From Eubacterium sp. (lineage in GTDB: Bacteria > Bacillota > Clostridia > Lachnospirales > Lachnospiraceae): a DNA stretch of 64,000 nt. The position numbers and the translations under genes are program-made. Of the stretch, positions 47,982 through 57,457 are shown in pieces (the stretch's first letter is position 1; every line of letters begins with the position of its first letter). The notes below the pieces were generated by a model. That model was not told the origin of the DNA. It worked only from the letters and a program-made list of their open reading frames with translations, and ran no database searches. The stretch covers positions 1-64,000 of the forward strand of contig JAEFAB010000074.1 of the NCBI GenBank assembly GCA_016292095.1. The letters run 5' to 3'.

Positions 47982-49232
47982 TTATTCCACAACCACATCT
48001 TCTTTCGGGTTATCCTTCGGAGTACTGTATTTCTTTTTGCCGTATCCCTTTGGCATTCCGATTTTCATATACAATTTACCCAATCCGGTAATATCTCCTG
48101 TATAATGATTAAACATTGCCGAAGCTCCGTTTCTGCGGTCAGTTGTCTGGAATGAGAACCAGGCATAACGCTCTACATAATCTCTCTCATCCAGTTTTTC
48201 GATTACCTTCTTCATATAATGGCGTACAACTTTTCTGGCCCTTGCGTCCACGCTTGGCACCCCACTAATGGCAAACTCAGTTACCCAGATTGGCTTATGA
48301 TACATTTCATATGCTTCATCCACCAATTTAATAAAGGCATCAACACCATCATCATCATACCAGTTCCAGTAATGATGAAGTGGAATAAAATCAAATTCCC
48401 AGCCTCTCTGATCCACTTTTTTCATAAACGGCTGGAACCAATCCTTGGACCAGGATGGCAACAATGCTGTGGCAGGCGCCCCTACCAAAACATTTCCTTT
48501 ATTCGCGAATACAGTTTCTAATCCACCCATAACTTCATCTACAGTCAGATTTGCCTGTTCCGCCAAATCCGGTTCGTTGTAACACAACATGTAAGTGAAA
48601 TCATACGCATTGAACAACTGCATATTACGTTCATCTGAGGAACCAATACTCCAAAGCATCGGAACATATTCCAAATCCTGGAATGAAGTGTATTTGAACG
48701 GATACATCGCCCAGTTATAATACCAGGAAACTCCCCAGTCTACTGCATCCAGATTCATCGCCATATCTTTGTTGGTACAAAATCCTTTTTTGTTTACAAA
48801 GAATGTATTGATATCAGAATTCAGAACCGACCCATTCTCCATATCTGCTTCAACATATACCGTATGCTTTGTAACCTTTGTATCGTAATAAGTACAGGTG
48901 GTAGTTTCCCCATCAGTTGTTTCAATCAACTGATCATCCACATAGACTTTATATCCGGAAACCTTCCCCAAACTTTCTGCGCTGTTCCATGTGATTTTCA
49001 TGGTTCCGGCAGCCTTTAACGAACCTGCAGCGGGAGAAACCACTGCGGTATTCTCCCACTGCTCCTTGTTCGCTTTAATATCTTTTTTTTCTTCTTTTAC
49101 CGCATTTTCCTTGCTCTGTTTTGCGGTATTTTCTGTTTTGCTTTTATTGTCATATTTTGCGAAGCAAACACCGCCTGCGATGGCTGCACAACATACGACT
49201 AATGCTAGGATTATTACTGATTTTTTTCTCAT
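47982..49232 (-). CDS. Membrane-anchored PF11790/GH128-like glycoside hydrolase
   Basis: N-terminal TM; SWYYNWAM, MLCYNEPDL and KPIWVTEFAIS candidate catalytic motifs. Confidence 0.75.
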   Translation of the reverse strand: MRKKSVIILALVVCCAAIAGGVCFAKYDNKSKTENTAKQSKENAVKEEKKDIKANKEQWENTAVVSPAAGSLKAAGTMKITWNSAESLGKVSGYKVYVDDQLIETTDGETTTCTYYDTKVTKHTVYVEADMENGSVLNSDINTFFVNKKGFCTNKDMAMNLDAVDWGVSWYYNWAMYPFKYTSFQDLEYVPMLWSIGSSDERNMQLFNAYDFTYMLCYNEPDLAEQANLTVDEVMGGLETVFANKGNVLVGAPATALLPSWSKDWFQPFMKKVDQRGWEFDFIPLHHYWNWYDDDGVDAFIKLVDEAYEMYHKPIWVTEFAISGVPSVDARARKVVRHYMKKVIEKLDERDYVERYAWFSFQTTDRRNGASAMFNHYTGDITGLGKLYMKIGMPKGYGKKKYSTPKDNPKEDVVVE

Positions 49233-49233
49233 T

Positions 49234-50766
49234 TTACTTCGTTTTTACTTTAACCGGTGTAATCTTACTCCAGCCATAGTATACCTTTTTACCAAGAATC
49301 ATTTTATATGCTCTTACCCTAACATAATATTTAATCTTTTTCAATTTCTTTTTCTTGATTTGTTTCTTCTGTTTCTTTGTGAAAGTAACTTTAATTTTTG
49401 AAGAAATCTTTGATACGGCTTTTGTCTTGGCACCTTTCATTTTCTTATTGGTTCCATACTGAACTTCGTATCCGGAGGCTCTCTTCACTTCCTTGATGGA
49501 ATAGGTAAATGCTTTCTTCTTTCCACCTACATCAAAGAGATTTGTCTGGATTGCTGCAGCGCATCCGGCAACAGAAGTGTTTACTGATGTCGAAGAATTT
49601 ACGCCATAGGTTTTTGCCTTATATCCTGCAGGGTTACCAATCTGAGCATACATCTTTCCGATGTTTGTAAGCACACCCGTATCGTAATCATACAATGCAG
49701 ATGATGAAGCATCAGAACCATAAAGATTTGGAACAAACCAAGCATATCGTTCTACATAACTTCTTTCATTTAATCCCTTACAAATTGTTTTCAGGAATTC
49801 TTCAGCCTTAGCTCTTTCTTTCTGATTTGCATCACCCTTTAACCACAACGCAAACTCAGTAATCCAAATAGGCTTCTTATATTTGTCATAAGTTTCATCA
49901 ATCATTAACAAAAATTCTTTGGATGTTTTGCTACTGTAGTTTTCATAATACTTATGAACAGAAATGAATGTTGTATTAGCTTTATCATTTACAGATAAAC
50001 CATTCCAGTATTCACTCCACCACTTTGATTCTACGAGCGGGCTTGCCGTAGAAATTGCAGGAGAACCTAATTTAAGGTTTCCTTTATTTGGTACAAAGTA
50101 GTTTTTCCATCTGGATGCAGCAATACTTGCACGAATATTTGATTCCCACTGTAAATCCGGTTCATTAAATCCTAATAAATACTTATAACCTGCTTCTTTA
50201 ATTCTTGTGAAAGTTTCTGTCTTCAAACCACCTTCACCGTAAATCATTGGAACAAATTCCAAATCATAGAATTTTGTGTTCTTTTCCTTCATATCTTTAA
50301 AAGAACTTGTACCCCAGTCGTAGTACCAGCCTAAATTCAGGTCAGCCGGATCAACAGCATTTCCCATGTCCTTGTTGTTTACACCAAGACCTTTCTTTGT
50401 AACATAGAATGTTCTTGTATTTGTTTTTACTGTAGTACCGTCTTTCAGTTTTGCCTCAATATAAGCAGTGTGTTTACTAACAGATGTAGTATACATTTCA
50501 GCAGACATCACTTCTGCTGTAGTTGGGTTTAATGTACTCAGTTTTTTTCCATCCACATAAACAACATAAGATGCTACATCATCCAGGTTATTATTCCATT
50601 TAACATCAATATAACCTGCACCAACTAACTTTCCTTCTTCCGGAGCAACAATTGCTGTTTTACTCCATTCATCACTCGTTTCAGCAGAAACTGCTTTTGA
50701 TTCTGTAAGTGTAATTCCGCTTACAAACATTGCAGCCACCAATAACATAGAAATAATTTTTTTCAT
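49234..50766 (-). CDS. Secreted PF11790/GH128-like glycoside hydrolase with lysine-rich Fn3-like C-terminus
   Basis: Signal peptide; LGWYYDWGT, LLGFNEPDLQW, KPIWITEFALW; basic Fn3-like tail. Confidence 0.78.
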   Translation of the reverse strand: MKKIISMLLVAAMFVSGITLTESKAVSAETSDEWSKTAIVAPEEGKLVGAGYIDVKWNNNLDDVASYVVYVDGKKLSTLNPTTAEVMSAEMYTTSVSKHTAYIEAKLKDGTTVKTNTRTFYVTKKGLGVNNKDMGNAVDPADLNLGWYYDWGTSSFKDMKEKNTKFYDLEFVPMIYGEGGLKTETFTRIKEAGYKYLLGFNEPDLQWESNIRASIAASRWKNYFVPNKGNLKLGSPAISTASPLVESKWWSEYWNGLSVNDKANTTFISVHKYYENYSSKTSKEFLLMIDETYDKYKKPIWITEFALWLKGDANQKERAKAEEFLKTICKGLNERSYVERYAWFVPNLYGSDASSSALYDYDTGVLTNIGKMYAQIGNPAGYKAKTYGVNSSTSVNTSVAGCAAAIQTNLFDVGGKKKAFTYSIKEVKRASGYEVQYGTNKKMKGAKTKAVSKISSKIKVTFTKKQKKQIKKKKLKKIKYYVRVRAYKMILGKKVYYGWSKITPVKVKTK

Positions 50767-50884
50767 TTTATTTCCTCCATCATACTTTGTTTTTTGAATC
50801 TTTCCTTATAATACAAAAGGGCAGAATGAATTATATGCACCCATATAACCCTTTCCACCCTTTCAACTGTTTAAAAGATTATGA

Positions 50885-52249
50885 TTATCTTACAACTGCG
50901 GTTTTCTTCTTTGACCATTTTCCATATACTTTATTTCCAAGAGAGTCTAAATTGTATCCTCTAACCTGGATATAAACAAATGAACCTGATTTTAACTTCT
51001 TAATTGTTAAAGATGTCTTTTTAGTTTTCTTTGATTTAGCACCCTTCATGTTGGATTTCTTAGAATACTTGTATTCGTATCCAACAGCATTTTTAGCCGC
51101 ACCTTTTAATACAACTTTAACTTTCTTCTTAGATGGGCTCTTTGCACTCTTAATCTTTGGAGCAGCTGGTTTCTTAGTCTTTACATAATGAGCCTTTAAA
51201 GTAATATCCTTTGTTACGCCCTTTGTAAAGTCATACTTAGCACCACCTAATGTATAGTAATCAATTGTATAGTTCTTCTTTCCAAGCTTCATTGATGTAG
51301 AAGATGAAATGGAAGCTCTAGCACCTTTGTTTACATAAGTAGCATAAGTCTTTCCGTTTCCTGTGAAAGAAACCTTGTACTGATGTCCAGCGATTACCTT
51401 TAAGTTAGAGATATCGACCTGACCCTTCATACCGATTTCATCCGGATATGAATTTAAGTATGCACCTAATGTGAACATAATTCCCATAGATGTTCCACCA
51501 TAAGTCTTAGGAATAGTTACTTTACATGTAATGTTCTGTCCTTCTGCCTTTGTAGAATCTAAAATTAAAGAACCATCTAATTCAGCACCTGAGATGCTGT
51601 CAAATTCAACTTTTGGTTCACCCTTTGAAACAGGATCATAAGCCTTAAAGAATGCATGTTTCTGAGAAACTGTTTCTTTCATAGGCTGGCTACTTCCATC
51701 CAAAATCGGATTTCCATCATCATCCTTCAATTCTTTTGTTGTTGATAATGTACTCTTAATATTGAATGAAATTGTATAACTACGTCCTTTTTCTACCGGA
51801 ATACCTTTTAATTCAAAATGTAAACCGTATGGGTTATCACCTACAAGTTTTCCTTTATCATTGTACTGTCCATCCCATCCACTGTTCTTTACATAAAATG
51901 AAACAGCATCTGCTACATTCGGATTAGAAACAAAATATCCTTCTGTATAACTCTTGTAGCTATCTGCCTCTTCCAAACCTGCTTTATATTCCGCATCAGT
52001 AATTCTTCCTGCTGCATAGTCAGCTTCTACCTGTTTGATTTTTTTCTGGATTTCTTCCTCTAATGCAATCGCCCATTCTGTTTTCTGACCGTTGACTACA
52101 TCACAAACAGAAAAACTTGACCACTTTCCTGATGTAGCTACATTTGCACCATTTGCAGCATGAGCAGCTGAAACAATGCTGGCAGAACCAATCACCATAG
52201 ACATTGCTAATGTAACTGCAGTGATTTTTTTCATTAAAATCTTTCTCAC
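50885..52249 (-). CDS. Secreted CBM-like beta-sandwich protein with InlB-like repeat and lysine-rich Fn3-like tail
   Basis: Signal peptide; GRSYTISFNIKST; KVSFTGNGKTYATYVNKGA...TLKAHYV; tail KSAKSPSKKKVKVVLKGA...VYIQVRGYN. Confidence 0.6.
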   Translation of the reverse strand: MRKILMKKITAVTLAMSMVIGSASIVSAAHAANGANVATSGKWSSFSVCDVVNGQKTEWAIALEEEIQKKIKQVEADYAAGRITDAEYKAGLEEADSYKSYTEGYFVSNPNVADAVSFYVKNSGWDGQYNDKGKLVGDNPYGLHFELKGIPVEKGRSYTISFNIKSTLSTTKELKDDDGNPILDGSSQPMKETVSQKHAFFKAYDPVSKGEPKVEFDSISGAELDGSLILDSTKAEGQNITCKVTIPKTYGGTSMGIMFTLGAYLNSYPDEIGMKGQVDISNLKVIAGHQYKVSFTGNGKTYATYVNKGARASISSSTSMKLGKKNYTIDYYTLGGAKYDFTKGVTKDITLKAHYVKTKKPAAPKIKSAKSPSKKKVKVVLKGAAKNAVGYEYKYSKKSNMKGAKSKKTKKTSLTIKKLKSGSFVYIQVRGYNLDSLGNKVYGKWSKKKTAVVR

Positions 52250-52285
52250 TTTTAATTCCTCCTCTTATTTCACTCGTAAATAGTA

Positions 52286-52307
52286 GCCCAATGCTTCTGC
52301 ATTGGGC
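52286..52307. other. Intercistronic hairpin between two secreted-protein genes
   Basis: GCCCAATGC-ttct-GCATTGGGC, perfect 9-bp stem with no U-tract. Confidence 0.75.
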
Positions 52308-52337
52308 ACTACTTAAATTTCTTTTTTCAAAGAACAA

Positions 52338-53504
52338 TTATTTTTTAATTTTAACCTTAACTGTCTTGCTGAATTTTCCAGCTTTGTAACCATTTGCTGC
52401 TAATGCGCGAACTTTAACTTTGTAAGTTTTGCCCTTCTTGAATGTTCCTTTAGCAACAAGTTTCTTTGCTCCTACCTTAGAAGTATATTTCTTCGTTCCA
52501 ATCTTAATCTGATACTTCTTAGCTCCTGTAACTTTCTTCCAAGATACTGTGATTTTACCTTTCTTGTTGTTCTTAGCTTTAACCTTAGTAACCTGTGCGA
52601 ATACTTTTGCAACAGCCTTCTTTGTTGTCTTTTCAACAGGCTTCTTTGTTGTTGCAGGTGCTGCTGTAGAATCATCTTCCCACTTTGTAGGAACTTCAAC
52701 ATATTCAGGATTTAATCCTAAGTCTGTAACTGTGAAATCACTTACATATACATGACCATGCCATCCATTTTCAACAGCTGTCACAATGTCTGAAATATCA
52801 TTTCCTCCCTGATCCTGCTGTGCATCAAATGCTCCAAGCATAACTGTAGTTTTGAACGAATCTAAACCAACCCAGTTTGTGAAAGTATAAGTAAAGGTCT
52901 TTGAAGTTGTTCCAAGTGCAACAACCTGCTTGTTTCCAGATATAACATCACCTTCATATGGTGCGATATCAACCTCTGAACCATCATCTCCTTTAATCTT
53001 TCCACCAACTGCAAAATATGCATACTTCTTTTCATCTGCTGATGCAGTGAATTCTACTTTATAATTATGTCCTGGAATAGCAGGAACATCAACGAATGCC
53101 TGAATAGACCATGGGTTAATTCTATATGGACTAAAATCCCACATAGCATCCCAACCAGTATTAGCAATATTAATATCAAATCCTTTTGAGGCCTGTGTGG
53201 CTGACTGTGTCTGTCCTACAGATGGATTATTGGCAGCACCTTCCGCACCGTTTCCTCTTAACCAACCTGAGATGGTTTCATTTGTTCCGTTCATTACTAC
53301 TGAATCAATGTAACCTTCGTTTCCGGCCTGAGAAGGTACATACTGTCCACCCTGTGAGAAGGACCAATTTGAATATGTAACCTCAACTGGCTCCGGAGTA
53401 TCTCCAGCATTTACATTTTTTGCTGTGTTTACTCCTACTGCTAATGTTGCAACTAACGCTAGGGATAAAGTCCCTACCATAACTTTGTCGAAAATTTTTC
53501 TCAT
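52338..53504 (-). CDS. Secreted CBM-like protein with lysine-rich Fn3-like tail
   Basis: Signal peptide; WSFSQGGQY...GHNYKVEFTASADEKKYAYFAVGG (CBM4/9-like pattern); tail KNNKKGKITVSWKKVTGAKKYQIKIG. Confidence 0.6.
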   Translation of the reverse strand: MRKIFDKVMVGTLSLALVATLAVGVNTAKNVNAGDTPEPVEVTYSNWSFSQGGQYVPSQAGNEGYIDSVVMNGTNETISGWLRGNGAEGAANNPSVGQTQSATQASKGFDINIANTGWDAMWDFSPYRINPWSIQAFVDVPAIPGHNYKVEFTASADEKKYAYFAVGGKIKGDDGSEVDIAPYEGDVISGNKQVVALGTTSKTFTYTFTNWVGLDSFKTTVMLGAFDAQQDQGGNDISDIVTAVENGWHGHVYVSDFTVTDLGLNPEYVEVPTKWEDDSTAAPATTKKPVEKTTKKAVAKVFAQVTKVKAKNNKKGKITVSWKKVTGAKKYQIKIGTKKYTSKVGAKKLVAKGTFKKGKTYKVKVRALAANGYKAGKFSKTVKVKIKK

Positions 53505-53517
53505 TTTCACTCCTCCT

Positions 53518-53529
53518 TAAAAACGTTTT
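53518..53529. promoter_or_regulatory. LacI-family-type operator-like palindrome
   Basis: AAAACGTTTT just upstream of the 53504 start; a second site GAAACGTTTT at 53721-53730. Confidence 0.4.
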
Positions 53530-53803
53530 GAAAACTCTTATTTTCAGTTAGACATATTTTATCATAATATTTTTTTAAATACAATCTCAAAATAGAAGGT
53601 TTTCACAAATAAAACTCTTTTTATCCTTAAATACCGTCATTTTTAACATAAACATTCCTTGATACCTCAAAAATGTATTATTAAAAATGCATAATTTCCC
53701 ATCGTTTAACCGCTATTTTTGAAACGTTTTAATCATATTTTTGTTTTTTGCCAACTTTTATCTCCACTATTATATTAAAAATTTCAAATACACTTGGCTG
53801 TTT

Positions 53804-55615
53804 TTATTTTTTTGCCTTGGCTGTTTTTATATTTGACCAAGAGCCTTTTCCCGCAGAATTAATTGCGCGTACTCTAAAATAATACTTCTTTTTCGCTGTA
53901 AGCTTTGAAATTTTAAGCGTTACTGCGCTGCAGATTTTCTTTTTTAATTTTTTTGTAAACTTCTTATCTAACGCATACTGAATTTCATACTTCTTTGCCC
54001 CACTTGCTTTTCCCCAAGTAAGCTGAACTGCTCTTTTCTTCAAACTCTTTGCCTTTTTCAATTTTACAGTTCCTGGCTTACTTACTTTTGAAATTGGTTT
54101 TTTCGTACTCTTTTCAGTCGTATTATCAACTTTCTTTGTTACTGTCGGTGCTACGGTAGTACTTTCCGCTACAGTTGTAACAGGTACCGTGGTATTTTCC
54201 GGCAGTGTTCTTTCTTCTCCAGTAAAAACAAACATCTTCTCATCCGGAATTGTTGTCGCATTATAGCCTTCAGGATTTCCAATGGTTGAGTACAATCTAC
54301 CTAGTTCAGTGTATAATCCCGATTCAAATTCAAACATAGAAGTCGCTCCGGAACCATTATATGAATCAATGTCATTTGTACTGTCAATATTGTACGAGAA
54401 CCAGCAATAACGTTCTACAAAAGGATAAGCATCAAGTGCCTCTACAATTCCGTTTACATAGTTTGCCATTTCTTGTCTTCTTTGTGGAATTTCATAACTA
54501 TAGTCTCTCGAGGTATTTTTGGTTCCAAATACTGAAATTTCTGTCACCCAAATCGGCAAATGATAACTGTTCCACAACGTTTCTACCGCACCTTTCAGTC
54601 CTTCCAGATCAATTCGATCCTGGTAGAAATGAAGAACAACAGCATCCACATCATTAAATGCATTTTCGTCATTTAGTACTCCGTTTACACGGATGTGTGT
54701 GCTCTGCGCGAATTCATTGTCGTCAAATCTTCTGAATTCTACCCATTGTTCAGGGTTTTTAGGGCTCTTACAAATATCTTCTCCATACATAAACTGTGCT
54801 AACCATCCAGAATTTCCTCCCGGTGCTGCTGGAGCAGGAGCAACTTTTCTCATATTCAACGGTGCAATATACTGATTCCATACACCGATTGCATCATAAA
54901 AGAACATATTTGCCTGTCCCGGAATATCCGGTTCATTAAATCCCAAGATATAATTTGATTTTGTAGATAAATTTTGAATATCCTCAATATCATTTTTGTG
55001 TTCTTTGTTATTTGGTTCATCTCCCAATCTGTTTCCCCACATCATAGGAATATGAGCAACATCCTTATCTACATCATTATCGAACGCCTTTGTTCCCCAG
55101 TTATAATACCAGGAACAATTCAAGTCCTTTAAAGCAATTTTATCTGTCATATCATCTCCGAGAGCTAATCCCTTCTTCGATACATAGAATGTTCTTGTAT
55201 CGGATACAACTTCACTGCCTTCTTTTTCAGCCTTTACTGTCAATTCATGTTTGCTGACTGTAGTTGTGTACACTTCAGTCTTTCCTGTATCTTCTGATGT
55301 AAAATGCTTGATTACGGAACTGTCTGTTTTTTCTTCCCCGATATCAGTACGAACAATATCGTCTCCGTTCCAGTACATTGGTTTTCCATCTAAATAAACC
55401 GTGTAAGTATAGCCTTCCATGGAATTGTCAAATTCCACATCAATATACCCGGCACCGATTAACGAACCTTCACCGGGAGTAATCACTGCATTTTGCTTCC
55501 ATTCTTCCACTGTTGTTGCAGCATCAACAGGGCTGGTGTAATTGATTCCGCTCGCTGCTACAACCAGGGCTAACGATACAGAAACAACCTTTTTCAATAC
55601 TTTCTTCATATTCAT
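53804..55615 (-). CDS. Secreted PF11790/GH128-like glycoside hydrolase with lysine-rich Fn3-like C-terminus
   Basis: Signal peptide; CSWYYNWGT, ILGFNEPDIPG, LPIWVTEISVFG; tail KRAVQLTWGKASGAKKYEIQYALD...YYFRVRAINSAGKGSWSN. Confidence 0.78.
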   Translation of the reverse strand: MNMKKVLKKVVSVSLALVVAASGINYTSPVDAATTVEEWKQNAVITPGEGSLIGAGYIDVEFDNSMEGYTYTVYLDGKPMYWNGDDIVRTDIGEEKTDSSVIKHFTSEDTGKTEVYTTTVSKHELTVKAEKEGSEVVSDTRTFYVSKKGLALGDDMTDKIALKDLNCSWYYNWGTKAFDNDVDKDVAHIPMMWGNRLGDEPNNKEHKNDIEDIQNLSTKSNYILGFNEPDIPGQANMFFYDAIGVWNQYIAPLNMRKVAPAPAAPGGNSGWLAQFMYGEDICKSPKNPEQWVEFRRFDDNEFAQSTHIRVNGVLNDENAFNDVDAVVLHFYQDRIDLEGLKGAVETLWNSYHLPIWVTEISVFGTKNTSRDYSYEIPQRRQEMANYVNGIVEALDAYPFVERYCWFSYNIDSTNDIDSYNGSGATSMFEFESGLYTELGRLYSTIGNPEGYNATTIPDEKMFVFTGEERTLPENTTVPVTTVAESTTVAPTVTKKVDNTTEKSTKKPISKVSKPGTVKLKKAKSLKKRAVQLTWGKASGAKKYEIQYALDKKFTKKLKKKICSAVTLKISKLTAKKKYYFRVRAINSAGKGSWSNIKTAKAKK

Positions 55616-55690
55616 TCTTCTCCTTCTTTTTTTGCTCCATAATTCTTTTCTAAAGCAACCCATAGTCTCGGGTAAATTTTATCACAAAAA

Positions 55691-55738
55691 AAACACCCCC
55701 ACAATACAAACGAAATTCGTATGAGGTGTGTTTTTTTT
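55691..55738 (-). terminator. Terminator of the ssb gene
   Basis: ACACC...ATAC...GTAT...GGTGT hairpin flanked by A/T runs. Confidence 0.65.
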
Positions 55739-55752
55739 ATAGGTGTCATTTT

Positions 55753-56382
55753 TTATTCTTCAAGATATTCTAACTTGCTAACTGACACCTCGTAGGCTGT
55801 ATGCTTCTCTGTTTCTTCTTCATTAATACGCTTAACATATTCTCTGCTTTGGACTCTTCCCCAAATCTGTATATGTCCCCCAACTTCAAAAGATGAAGCA
55901 TATCTTGCGTTTCTGCCCCAGGCAATACACGGAATGTAATCCGACTTTCCGTATGGTCGATTGACTGCAACCAGCAAATCTGCAATTTCTCTTCCCAACG
56001 GTGTTTTTCTGTAAATCGGTTCCTTACAAATATAACCGTCTAAAAAGATCTGATTGGTCTTTCCACTTTCAAACTCTTCGTCAACCTCTTCCCATTCTCT
56101 TACAAAAATAGATAAAATCAACTTGTTCTTTGTGCCTTCATGACGATTATACGACCGGAACTGACCGGATACTTCTACCTGTCTTCCTATGTAGTCTTCT
56201 GTTACATCCACCAGACGTTCGGAAACCAACAGTGGAATCACGTCTGTTAAATCACTGAGACGGTCCACGGAAATGTCTACCATATAGAAGCCTTCTCCAA
56301 ACACGTCGTGACTGTATCTGAATTCCGATACAATCTCTCCTATCATACTTACTCGGTTGTTTTCAATCACTTTGTCAATCAT
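55753..56382 (-). CDS. Single-stranded DNA-binding protein-like (two OB-like segments)
   Basis: GREIADLLVAVNRPYGKSDYIPCIAWGRNARYASSFEVGGHIQIWGRVQSREY. Confidence 0.8.
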   Translation of the reverse strand: MIDKVIENNRVSMIGEIVSEFRYSHDVFGEGFYMVDISVDRLSDLTDVIPLLVSERLVDVTEDYIGRQVEVSGQFRSYNRHEGTKNKLILSIFVREWEEVDEEFESGKTNQIFLDGYICKEPIYRKTPLGREIADLLVAVNRPYGKSDYIPCIAWGRNARYASSFEVGGHIQIWGRVQSREYVKRINEEETEKHTAYEVSVSKLEYLEE

Positions 56383-56525
56383 TGTATTTCCCCCTTTTCC
56401 ATATTGTGGTTTATTATTTTTTTATCATTATTATTATATTCACTTTTCTATCAAATATGTAAAAAACTCTTCGCCTTTTTTCGACCCCATTTCGACCTTC
56501 GCCCCTCTCGGTAAACGCAAAAAAT

Positions 56526-56550
56526 CCCCCACATACTTCTATGTGGGGGA
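56526..56550 (-). terminator. Terminator of the 56573 gene
   Basis: ATCCCCCACATA-gaag-TATGTGGGGGATTTTTT on the minus strand. Confidence 0.85.
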
Positions 56551-56572
56551 TAATAAATTCATATGTAGTGAA

Positions 56573-57457
56573 TTATTTCACTTTAACTTTCTTAGCCTTG
56601 CTCCAAGGTCCGAAGAATTTCTTTCCTTTAGCATAAGCTCTAACTCTTACACTTACTTTCTTTCCGCTCTTGAATTTCTTGTTCTTTAAAGTAACAGATG
56701 GCTTTGTCTTATATACTTTCTTAGAACCAATCTTGAACTGGTATCCAGCTACTGACTTCTTGATACCTGTAGCAGATTTCTTAACTTTAACCTTTACAGT
56801 ATTCTTCTTAGGTGATTTTGCACTTGAAATCTTAGTCTGTGGAATAATGCTGAAGTTTGTGATAGAGATATCTGTCATTGCATCTGGATCACCGTCTGCA
56901 TCGTTTGGAAGTTCATTTTCAGCTGCTGCCTTTATATCTTTCTTAAAGATAGCGTATCTGATTTCAGCATCTTCATCAACACCTGTACGATCACCAAATT
57001 CTCCACCTAAACCAAAGTATACAGTTTTTGCATCAACTTTAGCTTTGAATGTTCTGCTAACTTTCTTTCCTTTAGAACCAGCCGGAATCTTTACCCAAGT
57101 TGCATATGAAATCACTTCGTCTGTAGCGATTTTTACATAGATGTACTTATTTACATTTGATGACTTTGCAGTAAAGTTAATTGTGTATGTTTCACCTTTT
57201 TTAATATTAACAAGCTTAGTATCTTCTGTAAGGAATACCTGTGCTCCCCAGATACCGCCGTATCCAACTTTTTCAAGTTTTGCTGTGAATCCTGCAAATG
57301 TGTTTGCATTTTCCAGTGTTCCTGACGCACCTTCATTCCATCCCTGATCAGCTCCATAATAATTCTGCCATGCTTCTGCTAAACATGTTGTGCTAACAGC
57401 GAACACTAAACCAAGTGAAAGTGCTGCAGCAGTGATTTTCTTTGCAAATTTTCTCAT
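56573..57457 (-). CDS. Secreted CBM-like protein with lysine-rich Fn3-like tail
   Basis: Start reassigned to ATG with RBS GGAGGAG; signal peptide MRKFAKKITAAALSLGLVFAVSTTCLA; KKGETYTINFTAKSSNVNKYIYVKIA; basic tail. Confidence 0.62.
   Translation of the reverse strand: MRKFAKKITAAALSLGLVFAVSTTCLAEAWQNYYGADQGWNEGASGTLENANTFAGFTAKLEKVGYGGIWGAQVFLTEDTKLVNIKKGETYTINFTAKSSNVNKYIYVKIATDEVISYATWVKIPAGSKGKKVSRTFKAKVDAKTVYFGLGGEFGDRTGVDEDAEIRYAIFKKDIKAAAENELPNDADGDPDAMTDISITNFSIIPQTKISSAKSPKKNTVKVKVKKSATGIKKSVAGYQFKIGSKKVYKTKPSVTLKNKKFKSGKKVSVRVRAYAKGKKFFGPWSKAKKVKVK

Follow-up and report, generated by a model that had tools for sequence, protein, structure and literature searches.

Do secreted glucanases that lie among housekeeping genes, with no transporter beside them, feed a bacterium or modify its own surface? 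The question is raised by a stretch of 64,000 nucleotides from Eubacterium sp. of the Lachnospiraceae (GenBank assembly GCA_016292095.1, contig JAEFAB010000074.1, positions 1 to 64,000 of the forward strand; hereafter the window), in which six open reading frames at 47982-57457, all on the minus strand, form a block. Three of these genes (A, B and E) encode enzymes of the glycoside hydrolase family 128 (GH128) type and three (C, D and F) encode proteins that resemble carbohydrate-binding modules (CBMs). A preliminary description of the window had already placed the six frames there and had suggested that they modify a surface or extracellular β-glucan rather than feed on it. We reach a different reading and consider it probable that the block is a genus-core, surface-displayed module for degrading external, insoluble β-1,3-glucan, most likely from the fungal or yeast cell wall.

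Three predicted endo-β-1,3-glucanases

The enzymes A (47982-49232, 416 amino acids), B (49234-50766, 510 amino acids) and E (53804-55663, a frame of 619 amino acids) had been assigned to GH128 from two motifs, NEPD and W(I/V)TE, and profile searches bear this out. Against a cut-off of 21 bits for the PF11790 profile, A scores 155 bits (E value 3.2e-45), B 165 bits (3.7e-48) and E 126 bits (2.9e-36, with a further fn3 match at 4.3e-8). The best sequence match of all three in the PDB is AmGH128_I (6uaq; E value 3.8e-30 for A and 3.8e-23 for B), a GH128 subgroup I endo-β-1,3-glucanase that is similar over the length of the catalytic domain and in which both catalytic Glu positions are conserved. 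NEPD aligns to its acid/base Glu, and in B the Glu of WITE aligns to the residue replaced by Q in 6ufl and by A in 6uas, that is, to the position of the catalytic nucleophile. The Tyr of a third motif, HxY, corresponds to Y247, which activates the nucleophile in the GH128 enzyme CBM6E (residues E168, Y247 and E272; PMC10956234).

From the profile and PDB matches we infer an α/β-barrel fold for A, B and E, which are probably GH128-type endo-β-1,3-glucanases with an intact catalytic Glu pair, their activity being a prediction from sequence. The family is a known one, to which they add new members. Beyond what AmGH128_I has, the enzymes of the window carry an Ig-like domain at the N terminus, B and E also a basic Fn3-like tail, and E has insertions; A, which has a membrane-anchored or signal N terminus, is without the tail, and B and E are predicted to be secreted. 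Translation of E probably begins about 15-18 codons downstream of the frame start.

Conservation within the genus agrees with the earlier reading of the two motifs as the catalytic pair. Across 15 orthologues of E, N243-E244-P245-D246, H345, Y347, W372, T374 and E375 are invariant, and NEPD, HxY and W[IVL]TE are kept in all 65 GH128 domains examined in the genus (65/65), so the motifs are not due to chance and have likely been held by purifying selection for catalysis. Loss of catalysis in some copies was considered and rejected: the four odd frames comprise three that are truncated at locus ends and one that reads PMWITE. In a tree of the 65 domains, A, B and E each have a clade of their own, made up of the genes at that position, and an A' group holds an intergenic copy that is missing from the window.

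Divergent CBM4-like partners

The preliminary description had also counted three CBM-like proteins in the block: C (50885-52249, 454 amino acids), D (52338-53510, 390 amino acids) and F (56573-57457). All three are predicted to be secreted and carry a basic Fn3-like tail, and C has in addition an InlB/Flg_new-like repeat. This part of the description stands for the families and, by predicted fold, for C and D, but at the level of single window proteins it does not reach the curated Pfam threshold. With a cut-off of 25.9 bits for CBM_4_9 (PF02018), the full-length D and F score 16.9 and 23.1 bits and the isolated domains 18.5 and 25.5 bits, and C gives no match in either form. At E ≤ 0.1, CBM_4_9 matches are found in 13 of 17 D, 14 of 14 F and 9 of 22 C orthologue domains, and a D-type domain in a GH16 fusion protein of the same genome (see below) reaches 37.2 bits. 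Profile comparison links C to D (98.9%) and D to F (96.2%), with a weaker link between C and F (89.8%) over a short stretch.

Structure prediction gave confident AlphaFold models for C (predicted local distance difference test, pLDDT, 86.8) and D (pLDDT 90.4), and for both the first PDB fold match is the CBM4-type jelly-roll β-sandwich 1gui (C: E value 1.3e-5, TMt 0.50; D: 6.8e-8, TMt 0.67). 1GUI comes from Thermotoga maritima and is a family 4 CBM whose structure was determined in complex with laminarihexaose (PMC6272582). The modest TM-scores mean that this match supports the fold and perhaps the class of ligand, not the specificity; C and D share 14-17% identity with 1gui and have extra insertions, and their binding of glucan is a prediction. 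Low-scoring Foldseek matches of C outside the CBM families were disregarded, a PDB sequence search with C and F returned no real match, and an NCBIfam scan of the six proteins gave nothing useful. C, D and F are probably divergent CBM4/9-like jelly-roll proteins, on weaker support than there is for the GH128 enzymes.

A nearby precedent for GH128 working with a CBM is CBM6E of Saccharophagus degradans (PDB 8j3x; GH128-CBM6), whose CBM loosens curdlan gel (PMC10956234). There the CBM belongs to family 6 and is fused to the enzyme, whereas here the CBM4-like modules are separate proteins.

The block is core to the genus

PF11790 was found in 22 of 22 same-genus genomes in a search of 40 relatives, with 1-9 matches each. 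When 294 genomes of the order were searched, only three of the about 290 outside the genus (~1%) had a match at E ≤ 1e-10. The N-terminal domain of C was found in the genus only in the same search; beyond it, only the Fn3-like and repeat domains have matches. Gene order is kept as well: in 16 of 16 relatives' loci inspected, the block is flanked by dapA and efp, and its gene order is efp-F-(SSB)-E-D-C-(C')-B-(A')-A-dapA-dapB-(amidase)-nadE; individual loci depart from it through gene loss, duplication or the end of a contig, and a block has two to four GH128 genes across the genus. The block is therefore genus core. What is newer here is the arrangement and the stand-alone CBM families, the enzymes being of known kinds; we found no description in the openly accessible literature of a genus-locked block with stand-alone CBM4-like partners, nor of the fusion protein described next.

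All three module types also occur together on one glucanase-derived protein. This predicted secreted protein of 1169 amino acids, encoded elsewhere in the same genome (L057:7885-11394, equivalent to C72:75885-79394), carries D-type, C-type, GH16 and F-type domains in that order. Its GH16 motif reads EIDIFQ, with the acid/base Glu replaced by Gln, against E-x-D-x-x-E in about 20 other GH16 copies, so the GH16 domain may be a pseudoenzyme. No close orthologue of the fusion protein was found in the other 22 genomes; there its GH16 part has its best matches in shorter frames, at 57-58% identity.

An unlinked locus for uptake and phosphorolysis

The flanks of the block consist of dapA, dapB, an amidase gene and nadE on one side and efp and aro genes on the other, and the earlier observation that no transporter or sensor adjoins it was accurate. 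Transporter, regulator and glycosidases do not occur together in the block, as they would in a Gram-positive polysaccharide utilization locus, but they do so in an unlinked locus on contig C66 (L095, C66:1-16000), where ATP-binding cassette (ABC) transporter components, a secreted-type GH16, a LacI regulator, GH161, GH94 and GH17 form one run. Its protein of 1059 amino acids matches GH161 phosphorylases (9qqk, an oligoglucan phosphorylase; E value 2.6e-241), and one of 898 amino acids scores 1041 bits against the GH94 laminaribiose phosphorylase 6ggy. A permease is among the genes of the run. The relative G019 has largely the same gene order; in G020 both phosphorylases and the transporter and GH16 genes are kept, with other genes inserted. 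Among 23 genomes, GH94-type matches occur in 20 and GH16 in all 23.

Tandem GH94-GH161 genes with ABC transporters are a described route for the sequential breakdown of β-1,3-oligoglucans (PMC6484121). The C66 locus resembles these tandem loci in its GH161, GH94 laminaribiose phosphorylase, ABC components and GH16, with the difference that the GH128/CBM block is not linked to it. A second comparison is the mixed-linkage glucan locus of Blautia producta, likewise a Gram-positive gut bacterium with GH16, several CBM4 modules and a GH94 phosphorylase; there CBM4 is fused to GH16 in a compact locus, and GH128 is unmentioned in the paper (PMC10318527).

The genome encodes many further predicted secreted glucanases and chitinases, with 9 GH128 and 11 GH16 domains in all. 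They include GH128 enzymes with F5/8C domains, a GH18 chitinase with CBM5/12 that adjoins a GH128, and neighbouring GH18 and GH16 proteins on contig C52 (L098:1000-5072), both with CBM56 and ricin-type lectin tails, a pair that suggests a joint attack on chitin and glucan of the fungal wall. A protein of 1531 amino acids (L032:8042-12637, contig C66) combines GH55 (4pew, E value 1.3e-146), GH128 and three CBM32 domains, and so carries two different β-1,3-glucanase folds on one polypeptide. A recurrent C-terminal domain ending in ILKVV(N/D)P-Y-- was seen on GH16, GH18 and GH128 proteins (L029, L031, L057:2448-3092 and L101) and also as a stand-alone protein of 214 amino acids; no Pfam match to it was seen in the carriers scanned.

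Function and substrate

Under the reading that we prefer, A, B and E would cut β-1,3-glucan internally outside the cell by a retaining mechanism with two Glu residues, as the conserved residues suggest. The CBM4-like modules of C, D and F, judging from their fold and from the fusion protein, would hold the glucan in place and perhaps loosen it. In B to F, the strongly basic Fn3-like tails could plausibly keep these proteins on the anionic Gram-positive wall, and A is presumably anchored in the membrane. Released laminari-oligosaccharides would then enter through the ABC system of contig C66, and GH161 followed by the GH94 laminaribiose phosphorylase would phosphorolyse them to glucose-1-phosphate, as in characterized homologues (PMC6484121).

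Several observations weigh against this interpretation. The block has no linkage to genes for transport or regulation, and its neighbours are housekeeping genes, the setting expected of a constitutive function in wall maintenance. Basic domains at the C terminus, which in B to F have isoelectric points of 10.5-11.1 and 29-34% Lys (10.5 and 29% in the tail of B), are common in this bacterial family, where the proteins that bear them differ widely in size and context. For several congeners with small genomes neither CBM56 nor CBM5/12 gave a match, and the substrate shared by the genus may therefore be something other than a fungal wall that contains chitin.

This last point bears on the strongest alternative, in which the mechanism is otherwise the same and the substrate is a non-fungal β-1,3-glucan (plant callose, algal laminarin or paramylon, bacterial curdlan) or a mixed-linkage cereal glucan. 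Besides the congeners just mentioned, it draws on the fact that GH16, GH94 and CBM4 also serve laminarin and mixed-linkage glucan, as in B. producta (PMC10318527). The GH18 chitinases with CBM5/12 and with CBM56 that adjoin GH128 and GH16 genes in this genome point instead to fungal walls. Mixed-linkage glucan as the main substrate is made less likely by GH55, GH94 laminaribiose phosphorylase and GH161, all of which act on β-1,3 linkages. Fungal-wall ecology is also made plausible by fungus-growing termite guts, in which GH128, GH55 and GH17 are enriched and Clostridiales provide much of the set of cell-wall-degrading enzymes (PMC6520439). We regard a non-fungal or mixed-linkage substrate as possible and the lesser prospect; a fungal-wall substrate is probably the right one, favoured by the chitinases and not settled by them.

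A rather unlikely alternative is that C, D and F serve mainly as adhesins, attaching the cell to particles of fungal material or glucan, with the GH128 enzymes as incidental neighbours. These proteins are indeed stand-alone and non-catalytic, with CBM-like domains and basic tails, and their module types recur around the probably crippled GH16 (EIDIFQ) of the fusion protein, but throughout the genus their genes keep a fixed order together with two to four GH128 genes, which argues for joint action.

The suggestion of the preliminary description, in the form that the proteins remodel a β-glucan belonging to the cell itself or to a biofilm and have no nutritional role, appears very improbable: its missing neighbours and housekeeping flanks, the syntenic genus-core block expected of a structural function and the possibly wall-binding basic tails are outweighed by a complete locus for the import and phosphorolysis of β-1,3-glucan, present in this genome and in relatives, by the many other predicted secreted glucanases and chitinases, and by a search of 23 genomes in which no glucan synthase of the cellulose-synthase type passed the cut-off (a search that used no specific model for curdlan synthase). 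Because the uptake genes are present but unlinked, the missing neighbours do not support an inference against feeding; they are explained by loci that lie dispersed rather than by a different function.

Gene organization of the block

The signal or transmembrane N termini noted earlier for all six proteins are plausible when judged by eye. The starting coordinates given for the genes hold, but the end at 57457 corresponds to an internal MRKFAKK start of F, whose frame is open to 57592. Terminator-like sites number 16 in the region, against 6.2 ± 2.8 after shuffling. One such hairpin lies between D and C (52286-52307, minus strand; 9 pairs, weak T tail), and a strong one lies between F and the gene for a single-stranded DNA-binding protein (SSB) (56524-56551, minus strand; 12 pairs, TTTTT tail). 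The start codon of A lies one base past the stop codon of B, which suggests a C-B-A unit, and we infer three transcription units: F, SSB-E-D and C-B-A. The SSB gene (PRK05813 type, 55753-56382) is embedded between E and F; it was rejected as a member of the system and is a passenger, since it is absent from that position in several relatives.

Implications

The findings point to a whole genus specialized on β-1,3-glucan, probably that of the fungal wall, with a predicted secreted arsenal that is unusual for the order. Whether all this together defines a previously undescribed glucan-specialist bacterial genus is a wider claim that we put forward only tentatively. The stand-alone CBM partners of GH128 are candidate non-hydrolytic glucan-loosening proteins, relevant as such to the ecology of fungi in the gut and to the production of glucan oligosaccharides.

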